DNA from: Thiomicrorhabdus aquaedulcis
GTDB lineage: Bacteria > Pseudomonadota > Gammaproteobacteria > Thiomicrospirales > Thiomicrospiraceae
Reading direction: 5' to 3'
DNA length: 64,000 nucleotides
NCBI RefSeq assembly: GCF_004001325.1
Contig: NZ_AP018722.1
Coordinates: forward strand, 248,001 to 312,000
Below are positions 2,929 through 60,038 of this stretch, piece after piece. The position numbers were made by a program, and so were the translations under genes. The first letter of the stretch is position 1. Each line of letters starts with the position of its first letter. Below the pieces are notes generated by a model. That model was not told where the DNA came from. It saw only the letters and a program-made list of their open reading frames with translations, and made no database searches.

Positions 2929-3447
2929 TCAGTCGTTGGCTAACTCGGCCTCTTCTTCCATTAACTTACGAAATTTTTGCAAGGCGCGTGCGCGCTTAAT
3001 GCCCGAAAGATGGTCCACAAATAATTTACCGTTTAAGTGGTCAATTTCGTGTTGTATGCAAATGGCCAGCAGTTCATTGGCTTCAATTTGCACCATTTTG
3101 CCGTCGCGGTTCATGCCGCGCACTAAAATATCGCTGGGACGACGCACCGTGCCGTAAATACCGGGCAGTGATAAACAGCCTTCTTCCCATGAGATTTCGC
3201 CGACACTGCGAATGATTTCGGGGTTAATCAGCGCCAAGGGTTGGTCTTTGCTTTCGGATACGTCCACCACAATGATGCGTTGTTGCACGGCAATTTGCGG
3301 CGCGGCTAAACCAATACCGGGTGCGTCGTACATGGTGTAAAACATGTCGTCAATGAGTTTATCTATGGCATCGGTCATTGCAGCAACAGGTTTGCAGACT
3401 TCGCGCAGTCCAGATTGAGGGTAGAGAACAATATCGAGTTTTTGCAT
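2929..3447 (-). CDS. def: Peptide deformylase
   Basis: Removes the N-formyl group from nascent proteins and is the functional partner of Fmt encoded just downstream. All three family motifs are intact in 172 residues: GIGLAAPQ (44-51), EEGCLSLP (88-95, metal ligand Cys91) and QHEIDHL (132-138, metal ligands His133 and His137, catalytic Glu134). The C-terminus ends with an acidic helix. It is transcribed away from dprA, with an 83-bp divergent region that should hold both promoters. The def-dprA divergent arrangement is common in gammaproteobacteria. Confidence 0.97.
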   Translation of the reverse strand: MQKLDIVLYPQSGLREVCKPVAAMTDAIDKLIDDMFYTMYDAPGIGLAAPQIAVQQRIIVVDVSESKDQPLALINPEIIRSVGEISWEEGCLSLPGIYGTVRRPSDILVRGMNRDGKMVQIEANELLAICIQHEIDHLNGKLFVDHLSGIKRARALQKFRKLMEEEAELAND

Positions 3448-3530
3448 GGTGTCGTTTATACTTAATTTTTTTAATTGGCCTATTATAACGAACTACGCCA
3501 ACATTTTTTTGATTTAAGCAGGGGTTTAAC

Positions 3531-4679
3531 GTGTCATTGAATACCGATTTGGCCAGTTTGGTGGCGTTGCACCTTTGTCACGCCACGCAAAAGCAGTTGC
3601 AGCAGGCGGTGGCGTTTTTTGGTGATGTAAACTCAGCCGTGCGCGCCACGCAAGCCGATTGGACGCGTGCGGGTATTTTAAGCGACAAACAGTTGGCGCA
3701 TTTAACGTTACCAGGCCTGGCGAAAGAGATTGAAGCCACCTTGCAGTGGGGCGAGCAGCCCGCTCAAACGTTATTGGCGTTAAGCGATGGGCGTTACCCG
3801 ACTTTGTTAAGTCGCATCAGTGACGCACCTATTTTGCTGTCGGTGCGTGGGCAGGTGAGTTTGCTCAACGACCCGCAGTTGGCCATTGTTGGCAGTCGCC
3901 ATGCCTCTAAACAAGGCCTTAACACCGCCAAAGACTTTGCCCAGCATTTATCGGCACAAGGTTTAACCATTACCAGCGGCTTGGCGCTGGGTATTGACAC
4001 CGCGGCTCACCAAGGGGGATTGCAAGGCCTGGGTAAAACCATTGCGGTCGTGGCCACGGGATTAGACCGCATTTATCCTGCGGCCAATCAAGCCTTAGGG
4101 CGGCAAATTGCCGAAGAGGGCGCGATGGTCTCAGAGTTTCCGTTGGGCACACAGCCGTTGGCGTACCACTTTCCTAAGCGCAATCGCATTATCAGCGGCT
4201 TGTCGGTGGGCACATTGGTGATTGAGGCGGCGTTGCAAAGTGGCTCGCTCATCACCGCCAAAACCGCCAACGAACAGGGGCGCGAAGTGTTTGCTGTACC
4301 TGGGTCTATTAATAACCCACAAGCCAAAGGGTGTCATCAGTTAATTAAACAGGGCGCTAAGTTGGTCGAATCGGGGCAAGATGTGTTGGAAGAGTTAGCG
4401 CCATTAATTCAACTGCCTATGCTCAGTGCGGCGCAAGAGAGCTTGGCGTTTAATGCGGCTGATAACACAGCACTAAATACATTGACCAGGCCTGGTCAAA
4501 GCTTAAATCATGTGTATAAAATTTTAGAGTTTATTGAGTATGACCCCATTGGGCTAGACGAATTGGTGGTGCTGAGCAAATGCGCGGTGTCGGATATTCA
4601 AAGCCAGTTGATGATGCTAGAAATGGCAGGACAGGTTGAGGCCTTGTCGGCAGGGCGTTGGCGACGCATTAAGGCTTGA
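3531..4679 (+). CDS. dprA: DNA-processing protein DprA (Smf)
   Basis: Binds incoming single-stranded DNA and loads RecA during natural transformation. The 382 residues contain an N-terminal helical region, the Rossmann-like DprA core (AIVGSRHAS, ITSGLALGIDTAAH, VVATGLDRIYPA, FPKRNRIISGLS, GSLITAKTA, VFAVPGSI) and a C-terminal winged-helix-like segment from about residue 320. No interruption is seen. It is divergent from def and convergent with the receiver/ATPase gene, 36 bp apart. Two exact CCAGGCCTGG copies lie inside it. With comM at 13.7 kb, the window keeps two competence-linked genes, although no pilus or ComEC genes are present here. Confidence 0.95.
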   Translation: MSLNTDLASLVALHLCHATQKQLQQAVAFFGDVNSAVRATQADWTRAGILSDKQLAHLTLPGLAKEIEATLQWGEQPAQTLLALSDGRYPTLLSRISDAPILLSVRGQVSLLNDPQLAIVGSRHASKQGLNTAKDFAQHLSAQGLTITSGLALGIDTAAHQGGLQGLGKTIAVVATGLDRIYPAANQALGRQIAEEGAMVSEFPLGTQPLAYHFPKRNRIISGLSVGTLVIEAALQSGSLITAKTANEQGREVFAVPGSINNPQAKGCHQLIKQGAKLVESGQDVLEELAPLIQLPMLSAAQESLAFNAADNTALNTLTRPGQSLNHVYKILEFIEYDPIGLDELVVLSKCAVSDIQSQLMMLEMAGQVEALSAGRWRRIKA

Positions 4680-4715
4680 GTTTTACATAATTTATTTGCA
4701 AGGTTTAAATGTGTT

Positions 4716-5666
4716 TTAAAGCGCAATGCGCGCCACGGCGGTGCGCCCACCGTCTTCATAATGCACGCTGTCAAAGCTGAGTTTACGGGCAATTAAAATA
4801 CCGCGACCGTGCTGGTCTGTGAGCCGTTCGGCCGAAAACTCCATAAACGGACTGGGGTCAAATCCTTCGCCACAATCGTGAATTTTAAACTCCAGTTGGT
4901 TGGCCAAACGCGTAAAAACAACTCTAATGACTTTGTCGCGATGTTGCGGGTTTTGCAGGCGTTCGTCAATCACTTGCTGCAGTTTATTTTGCTTAATAAG
5001 TTGTGTTTTATCTCGATAGTTTATACCCAAGTTACCGTGTTCTATCGCGTTAATGAACAGTTCAAACAGTCCGACGCCACAGCGCTTAGGGTTGGGGGTT
5101 AACAGCGCCAAACTGGTGGCCAAACTTTTGGCTTCGTCGGGGGTTTTAAAGTGAAACTCGCCGCTATGTAAAAGAGTTTTGGCGGCGTTAAAATCCGCTA
5201 AACGTAACTTAATTTTTTGCAAATGACTAAAGCCGTTTACGGCGGTTTGCAATACGCTAATCAGCTGTTGTTTGGTATAAGGTTTTACTAAATAAAAGAA
5301 CGCACCTGTGGCTAAACCATGCTGAATTTTGTAGTTGGATGGCGGCAAGTTTGTTTGCAAAATAATCGGAACGCTTTCGGGTTCGGACAGGGTTTTGAAA
5401 AGCGCGAGTGCTTCAAAGCAGGGCTCTTTCGACTGCGGTGAATCGTTTAATAAATAGGCACTAAAATAGGTGGTGGGTGCTTGCATTATTAAGGTTTTGG
5501 CCTGATGCAGGTCATGGGCAAACACCAAGTGATAAGGCTGGTTGGCCAGCGCCTGTTTTAAAAACGTCATGAGCGCAGGCTCAACATTTAAGACCAACAC
5601 ATTGGCCGGTAAATTATCGCTTACCGTGTCGGGAGAAAATGCAGAGGTGATAGAAGGGTGCAACAT
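4716..5666 (-). CDS. Receiver-like domain fused to RsbW-type HATPase
   Basis: This 316-residue protein has two parts. Residues 20-145 look like a CheY-type receiver with a possible phospho-acceptor Asp (YLLNDSP) and the conserved Lys (LVKPY). The usual acidic pair at the end of the first strand is replaced (VLNVEP instead of a D-D/E pattern), so phosphorylation is uncertain. Residues 160-316 form a GHKL ATPase of the anti-sigma/serine kinase type, with N-box LFELFINAIEHGN, G1 DCGEGFDP and G2 HGRGILIAR. Such proteins usually act as switchable anti-sigma or anti-anti-sigma kinases. No partner STAS or PP2C gene is adjacent. The target is unknown. Confidence 0.8.
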   Translation of the reverse strand: MLHPSITSAFSPDTVSDNLPANVLVLNVEPALMTFLKQALANQPYHLVFAHDLHQAKTLIMQAPTTYFSAYLLNDSPQSKEPCFEALALFKTLSEPESVPIILQTNLPPSNYKIQHGLATGAFFYLVKPYTKQQLISVLQTAVNGFSHLQKIKLRLADFNAAKTLLHSGEFHFKTPDEAKSLATSLALLTPNPKRCGVGLFELFINAIEHGNLGINYRDKTQLIKQNKLQQVIDERLQNPQHRDKVIRVVFTRLANQLEFKIHDCGEGFDPSPFMEFSAERLTDQHGRGILIARKLSFDSVHYEDGGRTAVARIAL

Positions 5667-6175
5667 AGTAATGTTTTAATGTCCAAAAGGTAGAGAGCGT
5701 TGGGTGAGTAAGGTGATTATTTGAATGTCATTATAAATGACTTTATCCGTTTTATTACAAGTGTTTTGTGCAAAATCACTTATTAAGTCTAATTTAACTT
5801 AAGATTGGGGCTTTAAAAACACCTTATAAACGGGCAAAGTCAGCATTAAAAGCAAAAATAATGAAACCTTTGCAAAAAGGGGATTGCAAAAAGTTAAAAA
5901 GTTTTGCACCCTTAAAAAAGCATAAAAATAGACATAATCCAAAATGCGTGCCATTGTGGTCGCCATTTGAGACCTTTGCACGAGTGGGGTGCGAGAAAAA
6001 AAAGAGGAGAAATTTGCCTGATTGAGGCGGGAAACGCAGTGAATAGCTGGCTATTCGCAAGTTTTTCAACGAAAATCAGGCAAATTTTAACCATTTTTGG
6101 CCGTACATCCACTCGTGCAAAGGTCTCATTTAAACCCCTTTTAATGAATTCATAAATTGTAGAGCTTAAATTGTT
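5667..6175. other. Non-coding gap upstream of topA
   Basis: This is a 509-bp A/T-rich stretch between two divergently transcribed genes. It holds one intact MITE (5969-6127) and otherwise no convincing reading frame. The promoter of topA must lie in, or be interrupted by, the element or the 48 bp after it. Confidence 0.6.
5969..6127. mobile_element. MITE copy 1 (GAGACCTTTGCACGAG ends)
   Basis: A 159-bp element bounded by perfect 16-bp inverted repeats (GAGACCTTTGCACGAG) that extend to about 19-20 bp (TGAGACC...GTGG) if one flanking base is included. It is flanked by a 4-bp direct repeat, ATTT. It has no coding capacity. An inner inverted repeat (TTTGCCTGATT with AATCAGGCAAA) and a central hairpin (GAATAGC-TG-GCTATTC) make the whole element foldable. 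It sits 49 bp before the topA start. Confidence 0.85.
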
Positions 6176-11857: not shown

Positions 11858-11895
11858 CCATTTTTGGCCGCACATCCACTCGTGCAAAGATTTCA
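11858..11895. mobile_element. Solo right end of the MITE
   Basis: The bases right after the ftsN stop (CCATTTTTGGCCGCACATCC then ACTCGTGCAAAGATTTCA) match the right end of the intact MITEs almost exactly, with two changes in the terminal repeat. The left half is missing, so this is a remnant. It may have supplied part of the ftsN 3' end region. Confidence 0.65.
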
Positions 11896-13018: not shown

Positions 13019-13373
13019 AAAAGCAAAGACCTGTTAAACGAAGTGTTAAAAGAGACCTTTGCACGAGTGAATGCACGAATAAAAATGGTTAAAATTCACC
13101 TGATTTTTGTTGGAAAACTTGCTAATAGCTCGCTATTAGCTAAGTTTCCCGCCGCAATCAGATAAATTTTCTCTCATTTTTCTTTCGCACCTCACTCGTG
13201 CAAAGGTCTCAAAAAGTGATAAGCGGTAAATGTGAAACTATAAAATTTTACCATGTTTGTATAAGTGCGTAATGCAAAATGCGCGTTGTTACGTGCAAGC
13301 GCTAGAGAACTGGGCACTAAAAGGGTATAGTTTAAACGTTTTTTGTTAATGTCATGCATCATAAGGAAATCCT
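13019..13373. other. Gap with MITE copy 2
   Basis: A 355-bp divergent region between the GGDEF gene and ubiK. It is occupied by MITE copy 2 and, after it, about 160 bp of A/T-rich sequence that should hold the ubiK promoter. An AAGGAAATCC ribosome site precedes ubiK. Confidence 0.6.
13053..13210. mobile_element. MITE copy 2
   Basis: A 158-bp element with the same 16-bp terminal inverted repeats, flanked by AAAA on both sides. Its central hairpin reads GCTAATAGC-TC-GCTATTAGC. Compared with the other copies, both arms have changed together, which preserves pairing. Confidence 0.85.
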
Positions 13374-16120: not shown

Positions 16121-18727
16121 ATGTTGCGTCTATCAAATCTTAGTATTAAGTCAAAGTTGTTTGGTTTGCTGTTTTTACCGGTGTTGGCATTGCTCTATTT
16201 TGCAGGATTAACGCTGGCTGAACGCTTAACCATTACTCAGCAAATGCAAAAAATTTCAAATTTGGCCATTGTGGCTCAGGGTATGGGGGATGTCATTCAC
16301 GAACTGCAAAAAGAACGTGGTATGACCGCAGGGTTCTTGGGTTCAAAAGGCAAAAACTTTGCTCAAGACCTGCCGCAACAGCGCCAGTTAACCGACCAAA
16401 AGCGTCAACTACTGGATGAACAACTCAAAAGCTTTAACTTTAAAAACTACGATGCCTTTTTGTTGGAAAACAATCAAAAACTACAAGCTAATCTTCAGCA
16501 AATCACCCAACTGCGTAGCAAGGTGGATACACTAAATGCCCAGTTGCCCGAAGTGCTTGGCTTTTACACCCAAACCATTGGTTATGGACTGTCTGCAATT
16601 GAAAGCATGCGTCACCTGACTCAAGACGGTGACATCTTAATTCAATTTAGTGCTTATATTAGCCTACTCAAAGCTAAGGAGTTTTCTGGCATAGAGCGAG
16701 CGGTACTCACCAATACCTTTGCGGCCGATAAATTTGCGCCTGGTATTTATAATCGGTTCATCACGCTGGTTGCCTCTCAAGAAGTGTTTATTCAAACCTA
16801 CCAAAGTTTAGCCACGTCAGTCCAACAACAGGCGTTAAACCAAGTATTAGAAAGTGATGCTTCAAAGGCCGTTAATGAGATGCGTCAAAAAGCACACACC
16901 CATTTTTATGAAGGTGGCTTTAACACAGATGCCAGTGTTTGGTTTAAAACCATCACTCAAAAAATTGATGGTTTGCGCGAGGTAGAATCACAAGTTTCAC
17001 ACGATATTTTGAATCTTACCTATCAAAAAACGCAAGCCGCTAATGCAGAGTTTTGGGTTTACGCTGTTGCGTTATTAATATTGATAATTTTAGTGATTTT
17101 GCTTTCCATGAAAATTATGCAAGGCATTCTCACGCCGGTTAATCACTTAATGAATCTTATGAAACAAGTGCAAGCAACCGGCAATTTTTCGGCCAGAATG
17201 CAGATTGTGCAAACAGATGAAATTGGTCAAATGTCCACCGCGTTTAATCAATTGCTCGACAATACTCAGCAAGCCCTACAAGAAGCAAATCGTGTGGTGG
17301 GTGCCATTGCTAAAGGCGAGTTTACTCAGCGCTTTAGCAAGCACTTTAACGGAGAATTAGACGCTCTAAAGCAAGGTGTTAATGCCTCAGCCGAATCGGT
17401 AGACTTTACCATGCAACAATTGGGCAACGTTATGGATGCGCTAACACAAGGAGATTTTTCGATACAAATGAGCCATCAAGTACCTGGTGCATTCCGAACT
17501 CAAGTGCAAACGGCACTGGATTCTATGAAAGGTGTGATTGATGAAATCAATCTTACGATGGAGCACATGGCACGCGGTGATTTTGATGTGACCGTCACCA
17601 CTCCGGCCAATGGAGACTTGCTCAAGCTTAAAGACAGTGTCAATAAGTCGGTAGGTGCAATAGGGTTTGCCATTAAAGCCATTAGCGATGTAGTACTTGC
17701 CCAAGCGCAAGGTAATTTAACGAAAGAGATGGCGCAAGGTTCATTGCACGGTCAGCTACTCAATCTTAAAAATGCCATGAATGATTCGACCCTTAAGGTA
17801 AAAGAAGTCGTGGATATGGCGGCTGAAGCCTCAGAGGTGGTCAGTGGTGCGGCGGCAGAAGTATCAAAAGGTTCGGAAGATTTGAGTCACCGTGTTCAAG
17901 AACAAGCGGCGGCACTTGAACAAACCAGTGCCACCATGGAGCAAATGAATGCGCAGGTGCAAAGTGCAAGCGACAATGCACAACACGCCAGTCAAATTAG
18001 CCAAGAAGTACAGCTGCAAGCTCAGCAAGGAGCTCAAGTTATGCAGCAAACCTTGCAGGCCATGCACGGCATCCAAGATGCCAGTCACAAAATTGTGGAC
18101 ATTGTAGCCTTAATTGACGGAATTGCTTTTCAAACCAATTTATTGGCGCTTAATGCCGCAGTAGAAGCCGCACGAGCAGGAGAACATGGGCGTGGCTTTG
18201 CGGTGGTGGCAGGCGAAGTACGCAATTTGGCCGGCAAGTCAGCGGATGCGGCTAAAGACATTAAAAAGTTAATTGACGTAACCGCGCAAAGAGTTGAGCA
18301 AGGTGCTGCATTGGCCGCACAATCAGGTCAAGTTTTACAGCAAATTAACACCTCTATAAACAGCGTCACAGACATGATTGCCGACATTGCTAAAACCTCG
18401 GCCGAACAAGCTCAGGGCATAGGTCAAGTGCATCAAGCCATCATGCAAATTGATGTCGTTACCCAGCATAATGCCGCCTTGGTTGAAGAGACCAGTGCCG
18501 CTTCTGAAAGCCTAAGCGAGCAGGCTGAAAAGTTGCAGACTGAAATTAGTTTCTTTAATACTGGGCGTAAGGCAAATCAGGTAAAAATGTTAACCAGAAA
18601 GTCGCCAGTAAAAGCAAACGATTATCAGGTTCAGGTTAAATTACCCATCAAGAAATTGGGTCAAAGTACACCGGTCAAACTGAATAACAAGGCCGCAAAC
18701 ACAGAGTCTGAGTGGGATGATTTTTAA
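16121..18727 (+). CDS. Methyl-accepting chemotaxis protein with NIT sensor
   Basis: A membrane chemoreceptor of 868 residues. A first membrane helix (about 12-30) is followed by a periplasmic helical sensor with the NIT hallmark [16 protein letters not shown], a domain linked to nitrate/nitrite sensing. A second membrane helix (about 312-333) leads to several HAMP-like units, and the signalling tip [32 protein letters not shown] lies near residue 665. The last five residues, EWDDF, resemble the CheR/CheB tether pentapeptide (NWETF in E. coli). AGGAG lies 6-7 bp before the ATG. It is a single-gene unit ending at a bidirectional terminator. Confidence 0.93.
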
Positions 18728-36314: not shown

Positions 36315-38747
36315 TTAATTTAAGCGTTTAAGCGCGCCACTTTGTGGACGAAAAAAGGCCATGTCTTGTGAGAGTTGCCCGGCCACTTCGGTCATGCTTT
36401 CGGCGGCGGCGGTGGTTTCTTCAACCAAGGCGGCGTTTTGCTGAGTGACCGAATCCATTTGGGTAATGGCGGTGTGTACTTGGCTTATGCCCAGTGCTTG
36501 CTCATGCGACCCAGCGGCAATTTGCTGCATTCGTTGTGAGGTGTCTTTAATGTTTAAATTAATCTCGTTGAGCATGCGCCCCGATTCGTCGGCTAAACGT
36601 GTTCCTTGGGTTATTTTGGCGACACTTTCGTCAATTAGGGTTTTAATGTTACGCGCCGCATCGGCTGATTTTTGAGCAAGCGAGCGTACTTCGCCGGCCA
36701 CTACTGCAAAGCCACGACCTTGTTCTCCGGCACGTGCCGCTTCTACTGCTGCGTTAAGCGCCAATAGATTGGTTTGAAACGCAATGGAGTCAATTAAGGT
36801 CACAATGTCGGCAATTTGATGGCTGGATTGCTCAATGCTGTTCATGGCGGTAATGGTGTCGTTCATTACTTTTGCACCGGTTTGGGCTTTGCTTTCAACG
36901 CCCTGCATGACTTGGCTGACTTCTTGAATGTTTTGCGTGCCGCTTTGTAAACTGGCGTTCATTTGTTCCATGGTGGCCGAGGTTTCTTCAAGCGCAGCCG
37001 CTTGTTGTTGCACGCGCTCGTTTAGGTCTTGCGCGCCTTGCGACACTTCTTGTGCGCTGTTTTGCACCTGTTGTGCCGATACAATGGCGTTGTTGACTAC
37101 TTCAAGTAAGCGATCGTTGCTGTTGTTTAACGCGTTTTGCAAAATTTGCAATTGGCCATTAAACGGCGTGTCAATCCGAGGGGTTAAATCACCGCTGGCT
37201 TGAGCTTGTAACACGCGACTGATTTCACTGATGGCCAGAGCTAAACTGTCTAAAGAGGCGTTCATGCTGTCTTTTAACTGACCTAATTGCCCAGGTGCAT
37301 TCACGTTTACGCGTGAGGCAAAATCGCCTTGTTGCATTTTTTGCATCACAGCGGTGATGTTATGAACCACGTCGTTTAACATGCTAAACGCGCCGTTAAC
37401 TTGATTGCGGAACGCTTCTGGAACTTGATCGCTCATTTTAAGATTAAGCGCACCGTGACTGAGTCCGTCCATAACCTTGCCCAGTTCATCCATCATAAAC
37501 GCGACACTTTTGGCACTGCCGTTAATACCTTCTTTAAGCTCGTTTAAGTCGCCTACATAAGTACCTTGCATGCGTTTTTGATAGTTGTTTTGGGCAATGG
37601 CTTGCACCACTTGGTTGGCTTCTTGCAAGGCTTGATGCGTTTGCCCAAACAGGTGGTTTAACGCTTGGCTCATTTGGCCGACTTCGTCGTTGCGCTGACT
37701 CACCAATTGTTTGTTTAACGTGCCTTGGGTAGACATGCTATTAATGGCGTCTTTCATGGTGTTTAAAGGACGTTTAACCAATTGTTGCAACGAAACAAAT
37801 AACACCAGCAGCAGCAGCGCAATCAAACCTGTTATAACTAGGCCTACCTGCATAAAAATGCTGTCAATGTGGGCAAACTGTTCGTCTAGCACGCTTAGGT
37901 TATAGCCCACAACGTGGTACGCAATCACTTCATTTTGGGCGTTGGTAATGGGGTAGACATCGGCACGGGTTTGATTGGTTTGAATCATTCCTGCGTCCAC
38001 CAATGCGTCTACGTCAAATTGTTTTAACCAATCTTGTGAGGGTTTTCTAAATTGAGTGTTATGAGCAATGTGATATTTGCCGTATTGGGTATTTTCAGCG
38101 CCTTTCTTAAAGGTTTTTAACGCCAAATCGTTGACTAAAATAACGTGAAAGTAGTTGCGAACCAGCATGTCATCGTTAATGTTGCCAAAGCCCGAGCGAA
38201 ACTCTAACGCGCCAATACGCTTGCCGTCTTTTTCAACCCCAGCAAACGAACCAATTACAATGCCGCCGCTGGACAAGTCAACCGCCGAATGAGTGGTTTT
38301 TTTGCCGGCTAAAATATCGCTTACACCACCACGATAGGTGGCGTCTTTACCACGCCCTGAATCGGGCTCTTTGGCGTAAGTGCGCATTAAAAATTTACCT
38401 TCGCTGTCTACTAATAAAAAGGTGATGTTTTTAAACGCAGTGTCTTGCTTGTATTTGTCGGCGACTTGAGCAAAACGGTCGCGTAAGCTGGCGTGGTCTT
38501 TATTGTCAAAGTCTTTAATGATGCCGGGTAAATTTACAAAACTCACCGCACCTAATTCGCCAATGCGCATTGATTGATCTATGCGATGTTCAAGAGTGCT
38601 GTGCGCTTGACGCGTTTCGTTAGCAATGGCACTTGTTACCATAGATTCACGAACAAAAAACATGACGATGGTGGCACCAATCAGCACTAGAGCGGCGGTA
38701 ATTAAAATGCGATTAATCACCGCTGTGGATAAGGATGTAGGTTTCAT
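36315..38747 (-). CDS. Methyl-accepting chemotaxis protein, Cache-type sensor
   Basis: A chemoreceptor of about 810 residues from the ATG at 38747, chosen for the GGAGTC site 7 bases before it; an in-frame upstream start at 38801 adds 18 residues. It has membrane helix 1 (about 12-32) and a periplasmic single-Cache-like domain (FLLVDSEGKFLMRTYA, GGIVIGSFAGVEKDGKRIGALEF). Membrane helix 2 (about 300-322) is followed by two or more HAMP units and the signalling tip [35 protein letters not shown] near residue 650. The C-terminus (SGALKRLN) lacks a CheR pentapeptide. The ligand is unknown. Confidence 0.92.
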   Translation of the reverse strand: MKPTSLSTAVINRILITAALVLIGATIVMFFVRESMVTSAIANETRQAHSTLEHRIDQSMRIGELGAVSFVNLPGIIKDFDNKDHASLRDRFAQVADKYKQDTAFKNITFLLVDSEGKFLMRTYAKEPDSGRGKDATYRGGVSDILAGKKTTHSAVDLSSGGIVIGSFAGVEKDGKRIGALEFRSGFGNINDDMLVRNYFHVILVNDLALKTFKKGAENTQYGKYHIAHNTQFRKPSQDWLKQFDVDALVDAGMIQTNQTRADVYPITNAQNEVIAYHVVGYNLSVLDEQFAHIDSIFMQVGLVITGLIALLLLVLFVSLQQLVKRPLNTMKDAINSMSTQGTLNKQLVSQRNDEVGQMSQALNHLFGQTHQALQEANQVVQAIAQNNYQKRMQGTYVGDLNELKEGINGSAKSVAFMMDELGKVMDGLSHGALNLKMSDQVPEAFRNQVNGAFSMLNDVVHNITAVMQKMQQGDFASRVNVNAPGQLGQLKDSMNASLDSLALAISEISRVLQAQASGDLTPRIDTPFNGQLQILQNALNNSNDRLLEVVNNAIVSAQQVQNSAQEVSQGAQDLNERVQQQAAALEETSATMEQMNASLQSGTQNIQEVSQVMQGVESKAQTGAKVMNDTITAMNSIEQSSHQIADIVTLIDSIAFQTNLLALNAAVEAARAGEQGRGFAVVAGEVRSLAQKSADAARNIKTLIDESVAKITQGTRLADESGRMLNEINLNIKDTSQRMQQIAAGSHEQALGISQVHTAITQMDSVTQQNAALVEETTAAAESMTEVAGQLSQDMAFFRPQSGALKRLN

Positions 38748-40989: not shown

Positions 40990-41004
40990 GAGACCTTTGC
41001 ACGA
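40990..41004. mobile_element. Solo left end of the MITE
   Basis: GAGACCTTTGCACGA, identical to the first 15 bases of the intact elements, with the related AAGGTG following. The rest of the element is absent. It lies 61 bp before truD. Confidence 0.6.
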
Positions 41005-41064
41005 ATAAGGTGTCAAGATTGCAATAAATCAGTGAGAAACAAAAGAGCTTAAAAGAGGTGATGC

Positions 41065-45304: not shown

Positions 45305-45366
45305 TTGCGATGCGGTTTAAGCGTTTAACCAGGCCTGGTCATTACGGTTAAGCACCACAAAAGCCC

Positions 45367-45438
45367 CGTCATTGCGGGCTTGACCCGCAATCTACTGCGG
45401 TTACGGCGTTAGATGCCGTGTCGTGGCACGGCATGACG
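45367..45438 (-). repeat. Double-hairpin repeat, copy A
   Basis: Two hairpins, TTGCGGG/CCCGCAA and TGCCGTG/CACGGCA, lie between CGTCATTG and CATGACG ends. It is inverted relative to the other copies. CCAGGCCTGG copies lie 28 bp before and 34 bp after it, between two convergent genes, so the group may act as a bidirectional transcription end. Confidence 0.75.
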
Positions 45439-45495
45439 GTAATGTGGATTGAAGATGAGCCAATCAAGATAACCAGGCCTGGTTAAATCCACTTT

Positions 45496-47110: not shown

Positions 47111-47240
47111 GTGGGATTCATTTTGGCAGTTAAAAGAAGGCGCTCATTTTAACAGGTGTGGCTAAGAGTACGAAGTTAATTGTTAAGGCGCGTTTAAGTT
47201 TGACCAGGCCTGGTGAGTGAGTTTGCCGTGCCACAATTAC

Positions 47241-47318
47241 CGTCATGCCGTGCCACGACACGGCATCTGCCCCGTGCGCCGTATCGGCAATAGATTGCGG
47301 GTCAAGCCCGCAATGACG
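47241..47318 (+). repeat. Double-hairpin repeat, copy B
   Basis: CGTCATGCCGTGCCACGACA... to ...CAATGACG, about 78 bp, with hairpins TGCCGTG/CACGGCA and TTGCGGG/CCCGCAA. CCAGGCCTGG copies lie at 47204 and 47357 on the two sides. Confidence 0.75.
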
Positions 47319-47373
47319 TGGTTTTTGGTTTTGAATTCAACTAATAATTGTAATGACCAGGCCTGGTTATACA

Positions 47374-52480: not shown

Positions 52481-55359
52481 TTAAACCTTTAACTTTTCAA
52501 CAGAAATAATTAATTCCTCGGTCGCTCTTTTCATTTGCTCTGTCGTGGCATAATTTTCTTCAACCAAGGCGGCGTTTTGCTGAGTTACATCGTCAATGCT
52601 TGAAATTGCTTTGTTAATTTCAGCAACGCCTTTGGCTTGTTCGTGCGAAGACTGTCCAATTTGTATAACCACCGAGCGCATTTTTTGAGTTTCGGCGGTA
52701 ATTTGCTCAAGATAGGAATTAACGCGGTTTACTTTTTCTACACCGCCCTCAATGGCTTGCGATGTTTTAACCGTTAACTGGTTAATCTCTTTTGCAGCGT
52801 CGGCTGATTTGCCCGCTAAGTTACGAACTTCACCTGCCACAACGGCAAAACCTCGACCATGCTCACCGGCTCTGGCGGCTTCAACGGCGGCGTTTAAAGC
52901 CAGCAAGTTTGTTTGAAACGCAATAGAGTCAATTAAGCTGGTTATATTTTGAATTTGCGACGATGCGGTTTGAATATCATGCATAGCAGATTGTGTTTGA
53001 TGCATGGTTTCGTTAGCGTCATTTAATACAATAACTTGGCTTTCGGCAATGGCAACAGCCGATTGCGTTGATTCAAGATTGCTTTGAACCTGAGACGATG
53101 TTTGCTCCATAGCGGAAGAGGTTTCTTCTAAAGAAGCCGCTTGTTCTTGGGTTCGTTCATTTAATGACAATGTGCCAGAGGCAACAATATCAACCGCCTC
53201 ATTAACATCATTTGTAACCGATTTTACATGGTTAATGATTTCTCTTAGGCCCGTTACGGCTTTGTTTAGCGCCTCTTTTGCCTCAAGAATTTTGTATTCA
53301 TACGGGTTGGTAATAAGCGTTCTAAAATCGCCTTCGGCCAATCGTTGTGCGGCAATCACCACGTCATCAAAGCCTTTTGATAGGTTCACCAACGAGTCGT
53401 TAATAATATTAGACAGCTTTTTAATATCGCCCTTTGTTTGCGACTCAATTCTAAGTGAAAAATCGCCTTTAGACACTTGCAACATAACGTCATCAATCTC
53501 TTTAAACACCAGCGATAAATCGTGCATGGTGTTTTTAGCCGATTCGACAATGTCAAAGTACTGGCCTTTTAAATCATTTGAATGCGTATTGCCAAATTGA
53601 CCTTCGCGCAAGTCGGTTAACACTTCGTTAATGCGTTTAAAAGTGTTTTGCAGACCGTCTACGGTGCTGTTAAGTTGGTTTTGAATGACTTTAAAATCGG
53701 CTTTGTATTCTTGGTCTAATCGAGTGGTTAACTCGCCTTTTAAAATATTGCTAAGCGACAAAGACACATCATTAAACGCTTGTTGAAACTTGCTTACCTG
53801 GTCGTTATAGGCAAGCGCAAGAGCGGCCATTTCATTGTTGCCTACGCTTTCAACGCGAGCAAATAAATCGCTAGAATCTACCGCCGCTTGAATCTGTTTT
53901 TCCATGCGAGCAATAGGACGAATTAATAAAAGCCAGGTTAAAAACAGCAAAGACAAAGACGTGATTAAGGTCGCGGTAATGACACTGTAAAAGGTGTTTT
54001 TTACCACCGCTAAATTTCCATCCAAATACGTTTGATAAGTCGATGCATTAAGGCTGGTAACCGAGTAGCCAATAATCTCACCGCGAATGTCTTTGATTTC
54101 GGATGTGGTGTGAATGTAATCGCCTTGGTGAATGGTTTTCTCAAGCGCCAACGCCGTTATGTCAACGTCTGCTAACACTTTCAAATGGTCAGCCGTGATT
54201 TTGCAGGTTGTCGCTTCCTTGCTTGAGCACACTCTAAATTGTTCATCTTTACCGATGGTTTGGTTGTCTTTATTGGCTTCAAATACTTTAGGGGGTGCTT
54301 GTTTGATGTAGTCGTTTTTAATGGCAATTAAAAATAGTGACCACTATTGGCTTCAAGCTCTTTTTTAACCGATTGAAAACGTTGCGTCATCTCAGCAAGA
54401 CCAATAAAACTCCCTTGATCTAAAACCGGTACCAGCGATTTGATGCTTAAGCCTTGCTCGTCAAACACAAAGTAGGATTTTTTAGTTTTGTTTTTAAGCA
54501 TGTCTTTAACGTAACCGCGGCCTGATGGCGATACGGTTTGTTCGTGGTCTTGAACCCAAGAGCGATAAATTGAATTACCTTGTGGATCATAAAGTTGCAC
54601 AACGACATTTTTTAAATCACTGCTTTCTCGGTAGTGCGCAGAAACCCCGCTTAATTCTTTAATTAAGGTGGCTGTGTCTAAGGTTTTAATGGCTGTTTTT
54701 AATTCAGAGGATTTAGTAATGCCCACTAAATTGGTTTCACCAATCACTTCTTTTTGCGCAATCATGCCGTCAATTTGAGTGTTGGCCGCGTTGGCGTAGG
54801 TCATTAAAGATGACTTTTTAACAAGCGCTGTTTGAGTTTGCTCGTACACATAAGCGCCGGCAAGAATAGAACCGGTCGTTATAACCGCGACAGCAATCAT
54901 CATGGGCAAGCTTTTTAGCTTAAACACATTGCCAAACGTGCGCATGTAAAATTTGTTTTTAATAACGCCATTGTTAATAACAGAATGACCTTTGGCTAAC
55001 GAGTCCATTCGGGTTTTAATGTCGGTTACTTCTACCGGAGTAAGGGCGCGCTTTATGGCGGTATAGCCTTTGTATTGACCGGCCGTGCCTAGCGGAATAA
55101 GGGTCATGGCAAGGTAAATGTCCTGGCCGTTGGCCATCGTTTCAATTGTAAAGCCAGTGTACGGATGGTTTGAGCTGATGATGCGCACAATATCGTCTTG
55201 AATCGCCGAAGGAAAGTTTCGTGAGCGAAATTCACCAATTTTATGCTCAACCATGTCATTGTCTGTGCGATACCCAAGCAGGTCTAAATAGTCTTTATTA
55301 ACCGATAAGATAACGCCGTGTTCGTTGATTTTTGCGGTGGCTCTTAAATTTGCACTCAT
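52481..55359 (-). pseudogene. PAS-linked chemoreceptor (Aer-like MCP), frameshifted
   Basis: Upstream frame (343 residues): an Aer-type PAS domain (GVILSVNKDYLDLLGYRT), a membrane helix (MMIAVAVITTGSILAGAYVY) and a Cache-like periplasmic domain. It ends at EANSGHYF. Downstream frame (583 residues): helix 2 ([16 protein letters not shown]), HAMP units and the tip [28 protein letters not shown]. One base added in the A5 run at 54330-54334 (T5 on the coding strand) joins them through [20 protein letters not shown], giving about 960 residues. All three expected parts are present, so the gene is probably intact in the cell. PAS suggests redox or energy sensing. Confidence 0.88.
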
Positions 55360-55668: not shown

Positions 55669-55827
55669 GAGACCTTTGCACGAGTCAGGTGCGAAAGAAA
55701 AATGAGGAAAAATTCACCTGATTGAGGCGGAAAACGCAGTGAATAGCTGGCTATTCACAAGATTTTCAACAAAAATCAGATGAATTTTAACCATTTTTAT
55801 TCGTGCATTGACTCGTGCAAAGGTCTC
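55669..55827. mobile_element. MITE copy 3
   Basis: A 159-bp element with perfect 16-bp inverted ends and a 4-bp AAAT duplication on both sides. The central hairpin is GTGAATAGC-TG-GCTATTCAC. The inner arms AAATTCACCTGATT and AATCAGATGAATTT pair with one mismatch. Confidence 0.88.
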
Positions 55828-55936
55828 AAATAATAAACAAACCCACCGGCACGCACTGGATTATGCCCAAGCGGTAAACGCAATGCGAGTATTGCAAGCA
55901 TCAACCAGGCCAGTTTGTTTACCGCGCCACGATTAC

Positions 55937-56008
55937 CGTCATGCCGTGCCACGACACGGCATCTAACGCCGTATTGGCAATAGATTGCGGGTCAAGCCCG
56001 CAATGACG
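55937..56008 (+). repeat. Double-hairpin repeat, copy C
   Basis: A 72-bp copy, nearly identical to copy D. A partial palindrome CCAGGCCAG lies about 30 bp before it and CCAGGCCTGG 19 bp after it. Confidence 0.78.
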
Positions 56009-56063
56009 ATGGAGTTGTTGGTAGTGACCAGGCCTGGTGAGTTTGTTTGCTGTGGAAGATGAT

Positions 56064-56135
56064 CGTCATGCCGTGCCACGACACGGCATCTAACGCCGTA
56101 TTGGCAATAGATTGCGGGTCAAGCCCGCAATGACG
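56064..56135 (+). repeat. Double-hairpin repeat, copy D
   Basis: A 72-bp copy nearly identical to copy C, with CCAGGCCTGG at 56028 and 56160 on either side. Copies C and D form a tandem pair with a palindrome between them. Confidence 0.78.
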
Positions 56136-56254
56136 AGGTTGTGTGGGGTTTAATAATGACCAGGCCTGGTTATCTTAAAACGGCTGATTCTAAGTTATTG
56201 AACAGGGTTTTCAACATCGTTTGCGGTAATTATAGGCTATGAAACCCTACAGAT

Positions 56255-59704: not shown

Positions 59705-59883
59705 GAGACCTTTGCACGAGTGGGGTGCGAGAAAAAAATAGGCGTAAGTACCCCTTGAGGGTAAAAAATTGTCCTGATTAAGGCGGGAAACGCAGTGAAT
59801 AGCTGGCTATTCACAAGTTTTCCAACGAAAAGCAGGAAAATTTTAACCATTTTTGGCCGTACATCCACTCGTGCAAAGGTCTC
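59705..59883. mobile_element. MITE copy 4
   Basis: A 179-bp element with perfect 16-bp inverted ends and AAT on both sides. It is about 20 bp longer than the other copies because of an extra segment (GGCGTAAGTACCCCTTGAGG) near the left end. The central hairpin GAATAGC-TG-GCTATTC is intact. Confidence 0.85.
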
Positions 59884-59908
59884 AATGTATTTAGCGCGTA
59901 GCGATTAC

Positions 59909-60000
59909 CGTCATGCCGTGCCACGATACGGCATCTACTCTCTACCGTCTACCCCGTGCGCCGTAACCGCAATAGATTACGGGTTAAGCCGGCAATGACG
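59909..60000 (+). repeat. Double-hairpin repeat, copy E
   Basis: A 92-bp diverged copy: CGTCATGCCGTG...TACGGCAT is followed by a duplicated TCTACC stretch and TTACGGGTTAAGCCGGCAA. The second hairpin has lost pairs, so it is older than copies C and D. Confidence 0.7.
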
Positions 60001-60038
60001 GGGCTTTTGTGGTGTTTAATGGTAATGACCAGGCCTGG

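Follow-up and report, generated by a model that had tools for sequence, protein, structure and literature searches.

An IS5-type MITE of Thiomicrorhabdus aquaedulcis with arms probably kept complementary mainly by templated copying

Compensatory changes in small mobile hairpins of bacteria have already been noted for the REPINs of Pseudomonas (PMC3116915). As described in that source, REPINs are associated with RAYT tyrosine transposases, whereas the MITE analyzed here has the ends and parents of the IS5 family and is flanked by target duplications. A non-coding element of Porphyromonas gingivalis, BrickBuilt (MITE464), has been reported with the ends GAGACCTTTGCA, or with ends a few letters off in some copies, and these ends correspond to those of IS5-family elements in P. 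gingivalis (PMC4596501). According to the same account, BrickBuilt contains a minisatellite, has kept both ends in 4 of 19 copies and shows duplications that vary, whereas the present MITE possesses a 159-bp palindromic interior, intact ends and mostly 5-bp duplications. The IS5-family element ISNme1 is given there with the ends GAGACCTTTGCAAAA (PMC4596501). Its ends, and those of the IS5-type elements that we found in relatives of T. aquaedulcis (GAGACCTTTGCA...), are the same, or nearly the same, as the ends of the MITE. The elements of the relatives are 1244–1264 bp long and coding, whereas the MITE has 159 bp, is non-coding and has only the outer 11–16 bp in common with them.

Double changes that preserve pairing can also arise in one event if one arm of a hairpin is copied from the other by template switching, as has been argued for RNA genes (PMC8794818). 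Unlike the RNA genes treated in that work, the carrier in our case is a MITE from bacteria, for which neither strand nor orientation to genes gave a convincing indication of an RNA role. None of the titles listed by our literature search named this MITE family. The new point made here is modest and lies in joining, for an IS5-type MITE, compensatory changes like those of REPINs with the maintenance of stems by template switching.

Copies of the MITE in the window and in the genome

The window, i.e., the whole stretch of DNA that was analyzed, comprises 64,000 nucleotides (C1:248001–312000) of a 2.54-Mb genome in two contigs. The original prediction had listed four intact elements with exact 16-bp ends in this window. 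All four are present, and each is bounded on both sides by exact copies of GAGACCTTTGCACGAG. Three of them lie on the plus strand, at 5969–6127 (159 bp, flanks ATTT/ATTT), 55669–55827 (159 bp, flanks AAAT/AAAT) and 59705–59883 (179 bp, flanks AAT/AAT). The fourth has the opposite orientation and occupies positions 13052–13210 on the minus strand (159 bp, flanks AAAA/AAAA), its start having been predicted one base off, at 13053. The flanking duplications are those that had been described, and they are shorter than usual for the 56 copies of the genome. The gene just downstream of the 5969–6127 copy is presumably topA-like, judging from its first residues. At a threshold of ≤2 mismatches, the window contains 10 end matches, compared to 0.01 expected from shuffled sequences. 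A lone end with one mismatch is located at 40990–41005 on the plus strand, and a search of its vicinity revealed no partner end. A decayed half of the element at 11879–11894 on the minus strand consists of an end with two mismatches, followed by right-arm sequence.

Two forms of the central hairpin had been predicted, and both exist as described. In the 55669–55827 copy, the center reads GTGAATAGC-TG-GCTATTCAC (55739–55758, plus strand), with its inner part paired in the DNA fold, and in the copy at 13052 it reads GCTAATAGC-TC-GCTATTAGC (13121–13140). The folding of the window copies is far beyond chance, with z = −10.6 for the DNA fold of 55669–55827 and z = −14.2 for the RNA fold of 13052–13210; in both cases, 0 of 200 shuffles were as good.

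Across the genome, 91 forward and 88 reverse end matches were found at ≤2 mismatches, and a reversed-pattern control gave 0. Pairing of the ends resulted in 56 near-full-length elements of 157–186 bp, whose ends measure 16–17 bp with ≤2 mismatches each. An exact target duplication of 4 or 5 bp flanks 43 of these 56 copies; the observed lengths were 5 bp (n = 32), 4 bp (n = 11), 3 bp (n = 7) and 2 bp (n = 1), and five copies had none. By a simple frame rule, one of the 56 copies is spanned by a long reading frame. Some copies differ from each other at 1–2 bases. The predicted assignment to the MITEs is borne out by the ends, the duplications, the 56 copies and one site that is empty in most relatives (see below): the element is a non-coding MITE, being short, bounded by terminal inverted repeats and free of a transposase gene.

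The length of the 59705 copy is accompanied by an insert of ~20 nt near 59743–59762, which could form a hairpin by itself and occurs in 3 of the 56 genome copies, this one included. Short hairpin-like inserts of 20–27 nt were seen at three different places of the element (59743–59762 in the window, and in the copies C1:2356170, C1:2434050, C1:1639290 and C1:1332359), one of them being common to three copies. The genome also contains shorter candidates of 28–126 bp, down to two facing ends. Micro-elements of 28–48 bp with little beyond two facing ends are located at C1:2046479, 2047915, 539034, 2105492, 2357273, 1441889, 565894 and 106958, and may have arisen by deletion or represent minimal mobile units.

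Other repeats share the window with the MITE. The 2.54-Mb genome contains 718 occurrences of a 12-nt palindrome, ACCAGGCCTGGT, which is found in the window at 4485, 8923, 36245, 45328, 56027, 59680, 60028 and further positions. The genome of one relative (G032) harbors many copies of a 1.3-kb transposon (L316, L317) that encodes a 400-aa PF01609 protein and has ACCAGGCCTGGC at both ends; this transposon behaves as if it inserted into, or carried, the palindrome ACCAGGCCTGGT. A second dispersed repeat of ~80–105 bp, at 45358–45443, 47236–47327, 55931–56009, 56058–56136 and 59904–60009, contains two palindromic pieces around GCCGTGCCACGACACGGC and GCGGGTCAAGCCCGC, respectively. In addition, stretches of 114–116 nt are repeated at 36685–36798 and 52824–52937 (77%, direct) and at 18404–18519 and 36388–36503 (74%, inverted).

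Spread among relatives and full-length IS5-type elements

Matches to the MITE at E ≤0.001 were obtained in 36 of the 62 genomes of the taxonomic family, T. aquaedulcis included, and in six of its seven genera. Extraction from the relatives was restricted to elements of 140–195 bp with recognizable ends; in one extraction set within this size range, one copy measured 188 bp and the others 158–162 bp. A target duplication of exactly 5 bp was present in 47 of the relatives' 101 distinct copies. The joined flanks of the copy C1:2356170 formed one continuous alignment over the joint in 26 of the 31 other genomes of the genus, gave a split or partial match in four and had no match in one. Most relatives therefore lack an insertion at this site, and the element at C1:2356170 most likely inserted in the lineage of T. 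aquaedulcis itself. A search of genome contigs added one gammaproteobacterial MAG, in which a single copy of the MITE was found. This copy (L101 4119–4277, WFMW01000045.1) lies in the gap between minus-strand frames at 3313–4062 and 4279–4836, which we take by eye to be uppS-like and frr-like genes, and it adjoins another GAGACCTTTG end. Viral contigs were dismissed as carriers of the MITE: two single-end matches were seen, the second end was not found nearby, and the matches looked coding by eye.

The suggestion that the ends are of the IS5 type was confirmed by both the ends and the transposase, since four relatives have full-length IS5-family elements whose ends are the same or nearly the same, and T. 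aquaedulcis has a broken one, in fragments. A profile search with PF01609 gave no match at E ≤0.001 in T. aquaedulcis and matches in 19 of the 62 family genomes. Six of the 30 loci from this search contained paired GAGACCTTTGCA-type ends 1244–1264 bp apart around a transposase frame, and at a seventh (L141 in G045) the ends were 586 bp apart, which represents an internally deleted form. The full-length transposase frames are intact in G034, G043, G055 and G059, each inside a 1244–1264 bp element with matching ends, and the transposases are about 326–337 aa long. The transposase of G034 matched NCBIfam NF033581 (transpos_IS5_4; E = 7.6e-78, 261.7 bits, cut-off 140) as well as PF01609 and PF05598. 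One of the six full-length elements (L152) was flanked by a clean 5-bp duplication, AATAA. When compared with three MITE copies, the upstream end of four of the six (in G034, G055 and G059) was identical to the MITE end over 16 bp, the two elements of G043 shared 15 bp with it and had one mismatch, and at the other end 11–13 bp were shared in five of the six. Comparison of the interior of three MITE copies with the six full-length elements revealed no convincing similarity beyond the ends.

In T. aquaedulcis, three fragments of the same transposase remain, without an intact frame. The largest (60 residues, 82%, with stops) adjoins the end GAGACCTTTGCACGAGA, which has 16-bp identity with the MITE end. 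No intact helper transposase was found in this genome or in the copy-rich genome G032. The search also found no intact helper in the copy-rich genomes G000, G044 and G016, and two of the four helper genomes (G055 and G059) had an intact helper and no MITE match. Two sets of candidate parents were discarded, namely the longest end-to-end candidate of T. aquaedulcis (C1:2046479–2047946), whose frames look like ordinary genes by eye, and G032's own PF01609 elements, of which eight stretches among 22 matches were examined and all had other ends. We propose that an IS5-family transposase of the transpos_IS5_4 group, encoded by same-ended elements of ~1.25 kb, would move the MITE in trans and that transposition would leave a target duplication of mostly 5 bp.

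Paired changes between the arms

The original prediction had further held that the hairpin is maintained by compensatory changes, and we ran a covariation test on a larger alignment. It contained 154 copies (152 distinct), 55 from T. aquaedulcis and 99 from others, one of them from the MAG. Left out of the event counts were C1:1146273 (too diverged), L127 and L129 (divergent), L210 and L130 (no end pair) and 32 duplicate extractions that were identical to sequences already present and mostly came from the same place. Changes were counted on tree branches at the 57 pairs of a consensus fold for which G-U pairing had been disabled. On single branches, 52 changes turned one Watson-Crick pair into another and thus affected both arms, compared to 3, 1, 2, 4, 2 and 0 such double changes when the partner was slid by −4, −3, −2, 2, 3 and 4 columns, respectively. 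The double changes were mostly isolated and distributed along the whole element (33 of the 52 in its interior), and they represented 36 distinct types at 26 pairs. That they are accidents of a palindromic start combined with a bad tree is extremely improbable: the copies are short and may be mosaic, which makes their tree uncertain, and several branches share some of the pair types, but the slid pairings gave almost none of these changes, the distinct types are many, and all of 12 bootstrap trees retained 32–45 interior doubles against at most 4 in slid pairings. The change from C-G to G-C at 5/155, among the outer bases, occurred on three branches, and double changes within the outermost ~28 bp may reflect that both ends track the same transposase. 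Across the family, the compensatory changes are real and far above the slid controls, whereas T. aquaedulcis alone (53 distinct copies) yielded only five doubles, three in the outer 28 bp and two in the interior (slid pairings: 0–1 per class). The covariation signal thus stems nearly entirely from the relatives.

Copying from arm to arm is directly visible in one case. The copy C1:1274375 differs from its sisters C1:2378327 and C1:183991 at the same nine bases, all at positions 131–142 of the right arm, and the nine changes give it a perfect outer stem of 36 bp, compared to 17 bp in the sisters. Since nine changes affected one arm and none occurred elsewhere, they point to one copying event, with the template either in the element itself or in an inverted copy, and C1:1274375 is one unambiguous arm replacement. 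Two further copies are weaker cases, because the copies closest to them are incomplete or show further differences elsewhere: C1:1259210 has a 2-nt deletion in the left arm and a central stem of 14 bp (8–9 bp in the nearest copies), and the half element C1:1421798 has a perfect central stem of 20 bp, with a left arm that matches an insert known from a right arm. The window copy at 13052 (C1:261052) and the related copy C1:1703881 show 14 differences in all; in the stem 68–78/83–93, these are at 68, 69, 72 and 73 in the left arm (within 6 nt) and at 88 in the right arm, and two more, at 80 and 81, are in the loop.

The spectrum of the paired changes was compared with that of single mutations. 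Single-arm changes at paired sites comprised 267 transitions and 143 transversions (143/410 = 0.35), and the double changes 29 transitions and 23 transversions (23/52 = 0.44). This share was compatible with the 0.35 expected if one arm is copied from the other (p = 0.19) and deviated strongly from the 0.13 expected for two independent hits (p = 1.6e-8; site by site and type by type 0.131, p = 3e-8), although smoothing with pseudocounts of 0.25, 0.5 and 1.0 raised the two-hit share to 0.19, 0.26 and 0.36 (p = 5e-5, 0.004 and 0.25, respectively). Hence, in their transversion share the both-arm changes resemble single mutations and not two independent hits, which fits copying. The share was somewhat above the copying expectation for the interior pairs alone (17/33, p = 0.044) and for the relatives alone (26/51, p = 0.041), and the doubles of T. 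aquaedulcis (four transitions, one transversion) were too few for a spectrum test. If each distinct change was counted once, transversions accounted for 14 of 36 doubles and 97 of 194 singles; this count saturates and thus cannot separate copying from two hits, and on the flattened base two hits would not be rejected. Strong selection that compensated every mismatch in time would also yield the spectrum of single mutations.

The element is one long imperfect palindrome, and a strand of it may fold back when it is single-stranded during replication. One arm could then serve as template for the other (template switching, that is, quasipalindrome correction), and a mutation would either be undone or doubled. 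Conversion between oppositely oriented copies could be an alternative route of homogenization. Our preferred account, which we consider probable, has the IS5-type MITE moved in trans and its arms kept complementary mainly by templated copying. That such copying accounts for most of the covariation is what we infer from the one arm replacement and the fitting spectrum. The original prediction had read the compensatory changes as an argument for selection on the folded form. This conclusion is not secured: copying from one arm to the other can be seen in one element, agrees with the spectrum of the doubles and works without selection.

Possible selection on the folded form

Selection could act on a folded RNA if the element were co-transcribed with its neighbors and served as an mRNA stabilizer, terminator or processing site, but we regard this as very unlikely. 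In its favor, the RNA fold is very stable, and in a strict mirror register changes to G-U exceeded those to A-C by 107:53 events (44:14 in T. aquaedulcis and 69:33 in the relatives). This register (513 G-U vs. 829 A-C cells) was not relied on, because in several stretches it is one base out of step with the pairing. When pairs were chosen without favoring G-U, the numbers were 150:110 (p = 0.015) in the whole alignment and 30:27 in T. aquaedulcis. The six slides summed to 361:237, a ratio no smaller than that of the true pairing, and the G-U excess is therefore not tied to pairing. We rejected the RNAalifold structure (494 G-U vs. 41 A-C cells) as a test of strand specificity, because the RNA energies themselves choose G-U pairs. 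The copies in T. aquaedulcis have no preferred orientation relative to genes, which likewise argues against an RNA role; there are 16 sense and 18 antisense copies between co-directional flanks, and 22 vs. 24 cases for genes reading into the element. Location between divergent genes is more frequent than between convergent ones (15 vs. six copies), and one copy has no called neighbor. Moreover, 23 of the 52 doubles are double transversions, which cannot be bridged by a G-U step. In the window, no Rfam family reached its gathering score. Taken together, no strand-specific sign of an RNA role was convincing.

A folded DNA could be selected if a cruciform or foldback were needed for the element's own transposition, or speeded it, and copies with broken pairing left fewer offspring. 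We judge this to be possible, albeit unlikely. The covariation spans the whole length of the element, with most of the doubles in the interior, and relative to breaks the doubles were ~4 times more common on internal branches. The ratio of doubles to breaks was 18:52 on internal and 15:167 on terminal branches for interior pairs (p = 0.0006), and 10:45 and 9:157, respectively, for the outer 28 bp (p = 0.009). In T. aquaedulcis this internal excess was not repeated, as its interior pairs had 0 doubles and 10 breaks on internal and 2 doubles and 40 breaks on terminal branches. An internal excess is predicted by selection among propagating copies, and a delay between mutation and copying, i.e., slow copying, could give the same pattern. 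Paired interior columns also had fewer substitutions per site than unpaired ones on terminal (3.66 vs. 6.63) and internal branches (1.86 vs. 3.66), a comparison that is biased because pairing was called from the consensus. The transversion share of the doubles, with the smoothing caveat given above, disfavors two independent hits, and the arm replacement in C1:1274375 shows that an arm can be replaced directly. Furthermore, classical IS5-type cut-and-paste transposition is not known to depend on a foldback. As paired changes are relatively more common on internal branches, we keep selection as a possible contributor, and it may add to the complementarity of the arms that templated copying would mainly maintain. 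A somewhat more doubtful version is that the foldback itself is selected, with IS5-type transposases or host replication mobilizing the element through a cruciform or single-strand hairpin, and with copying acting together with the loss of unpaired copies. If true, this would represent a fold-dependent route for a MITE of a DDE transposase.

When both members of a pair change and the pairing is preserved, this is widely regarded as proof that an RNA has a function. In this MITE family, paired changes alone do not demonstrate a job for the folded form. A high-copy bacterial element that combines strong covariation over 159 nt with visible copying between its arms, and in which no strand-specific sign of RNA function was convincing, would provide a negative control for RNA searches based on covariation, and the spectrum test, which asks whether double changes resemble singles or singles squared, is reusable. 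With its many copies, the MITE could also allow the rate of hairpin-templated copying to be measured in a bacterium.
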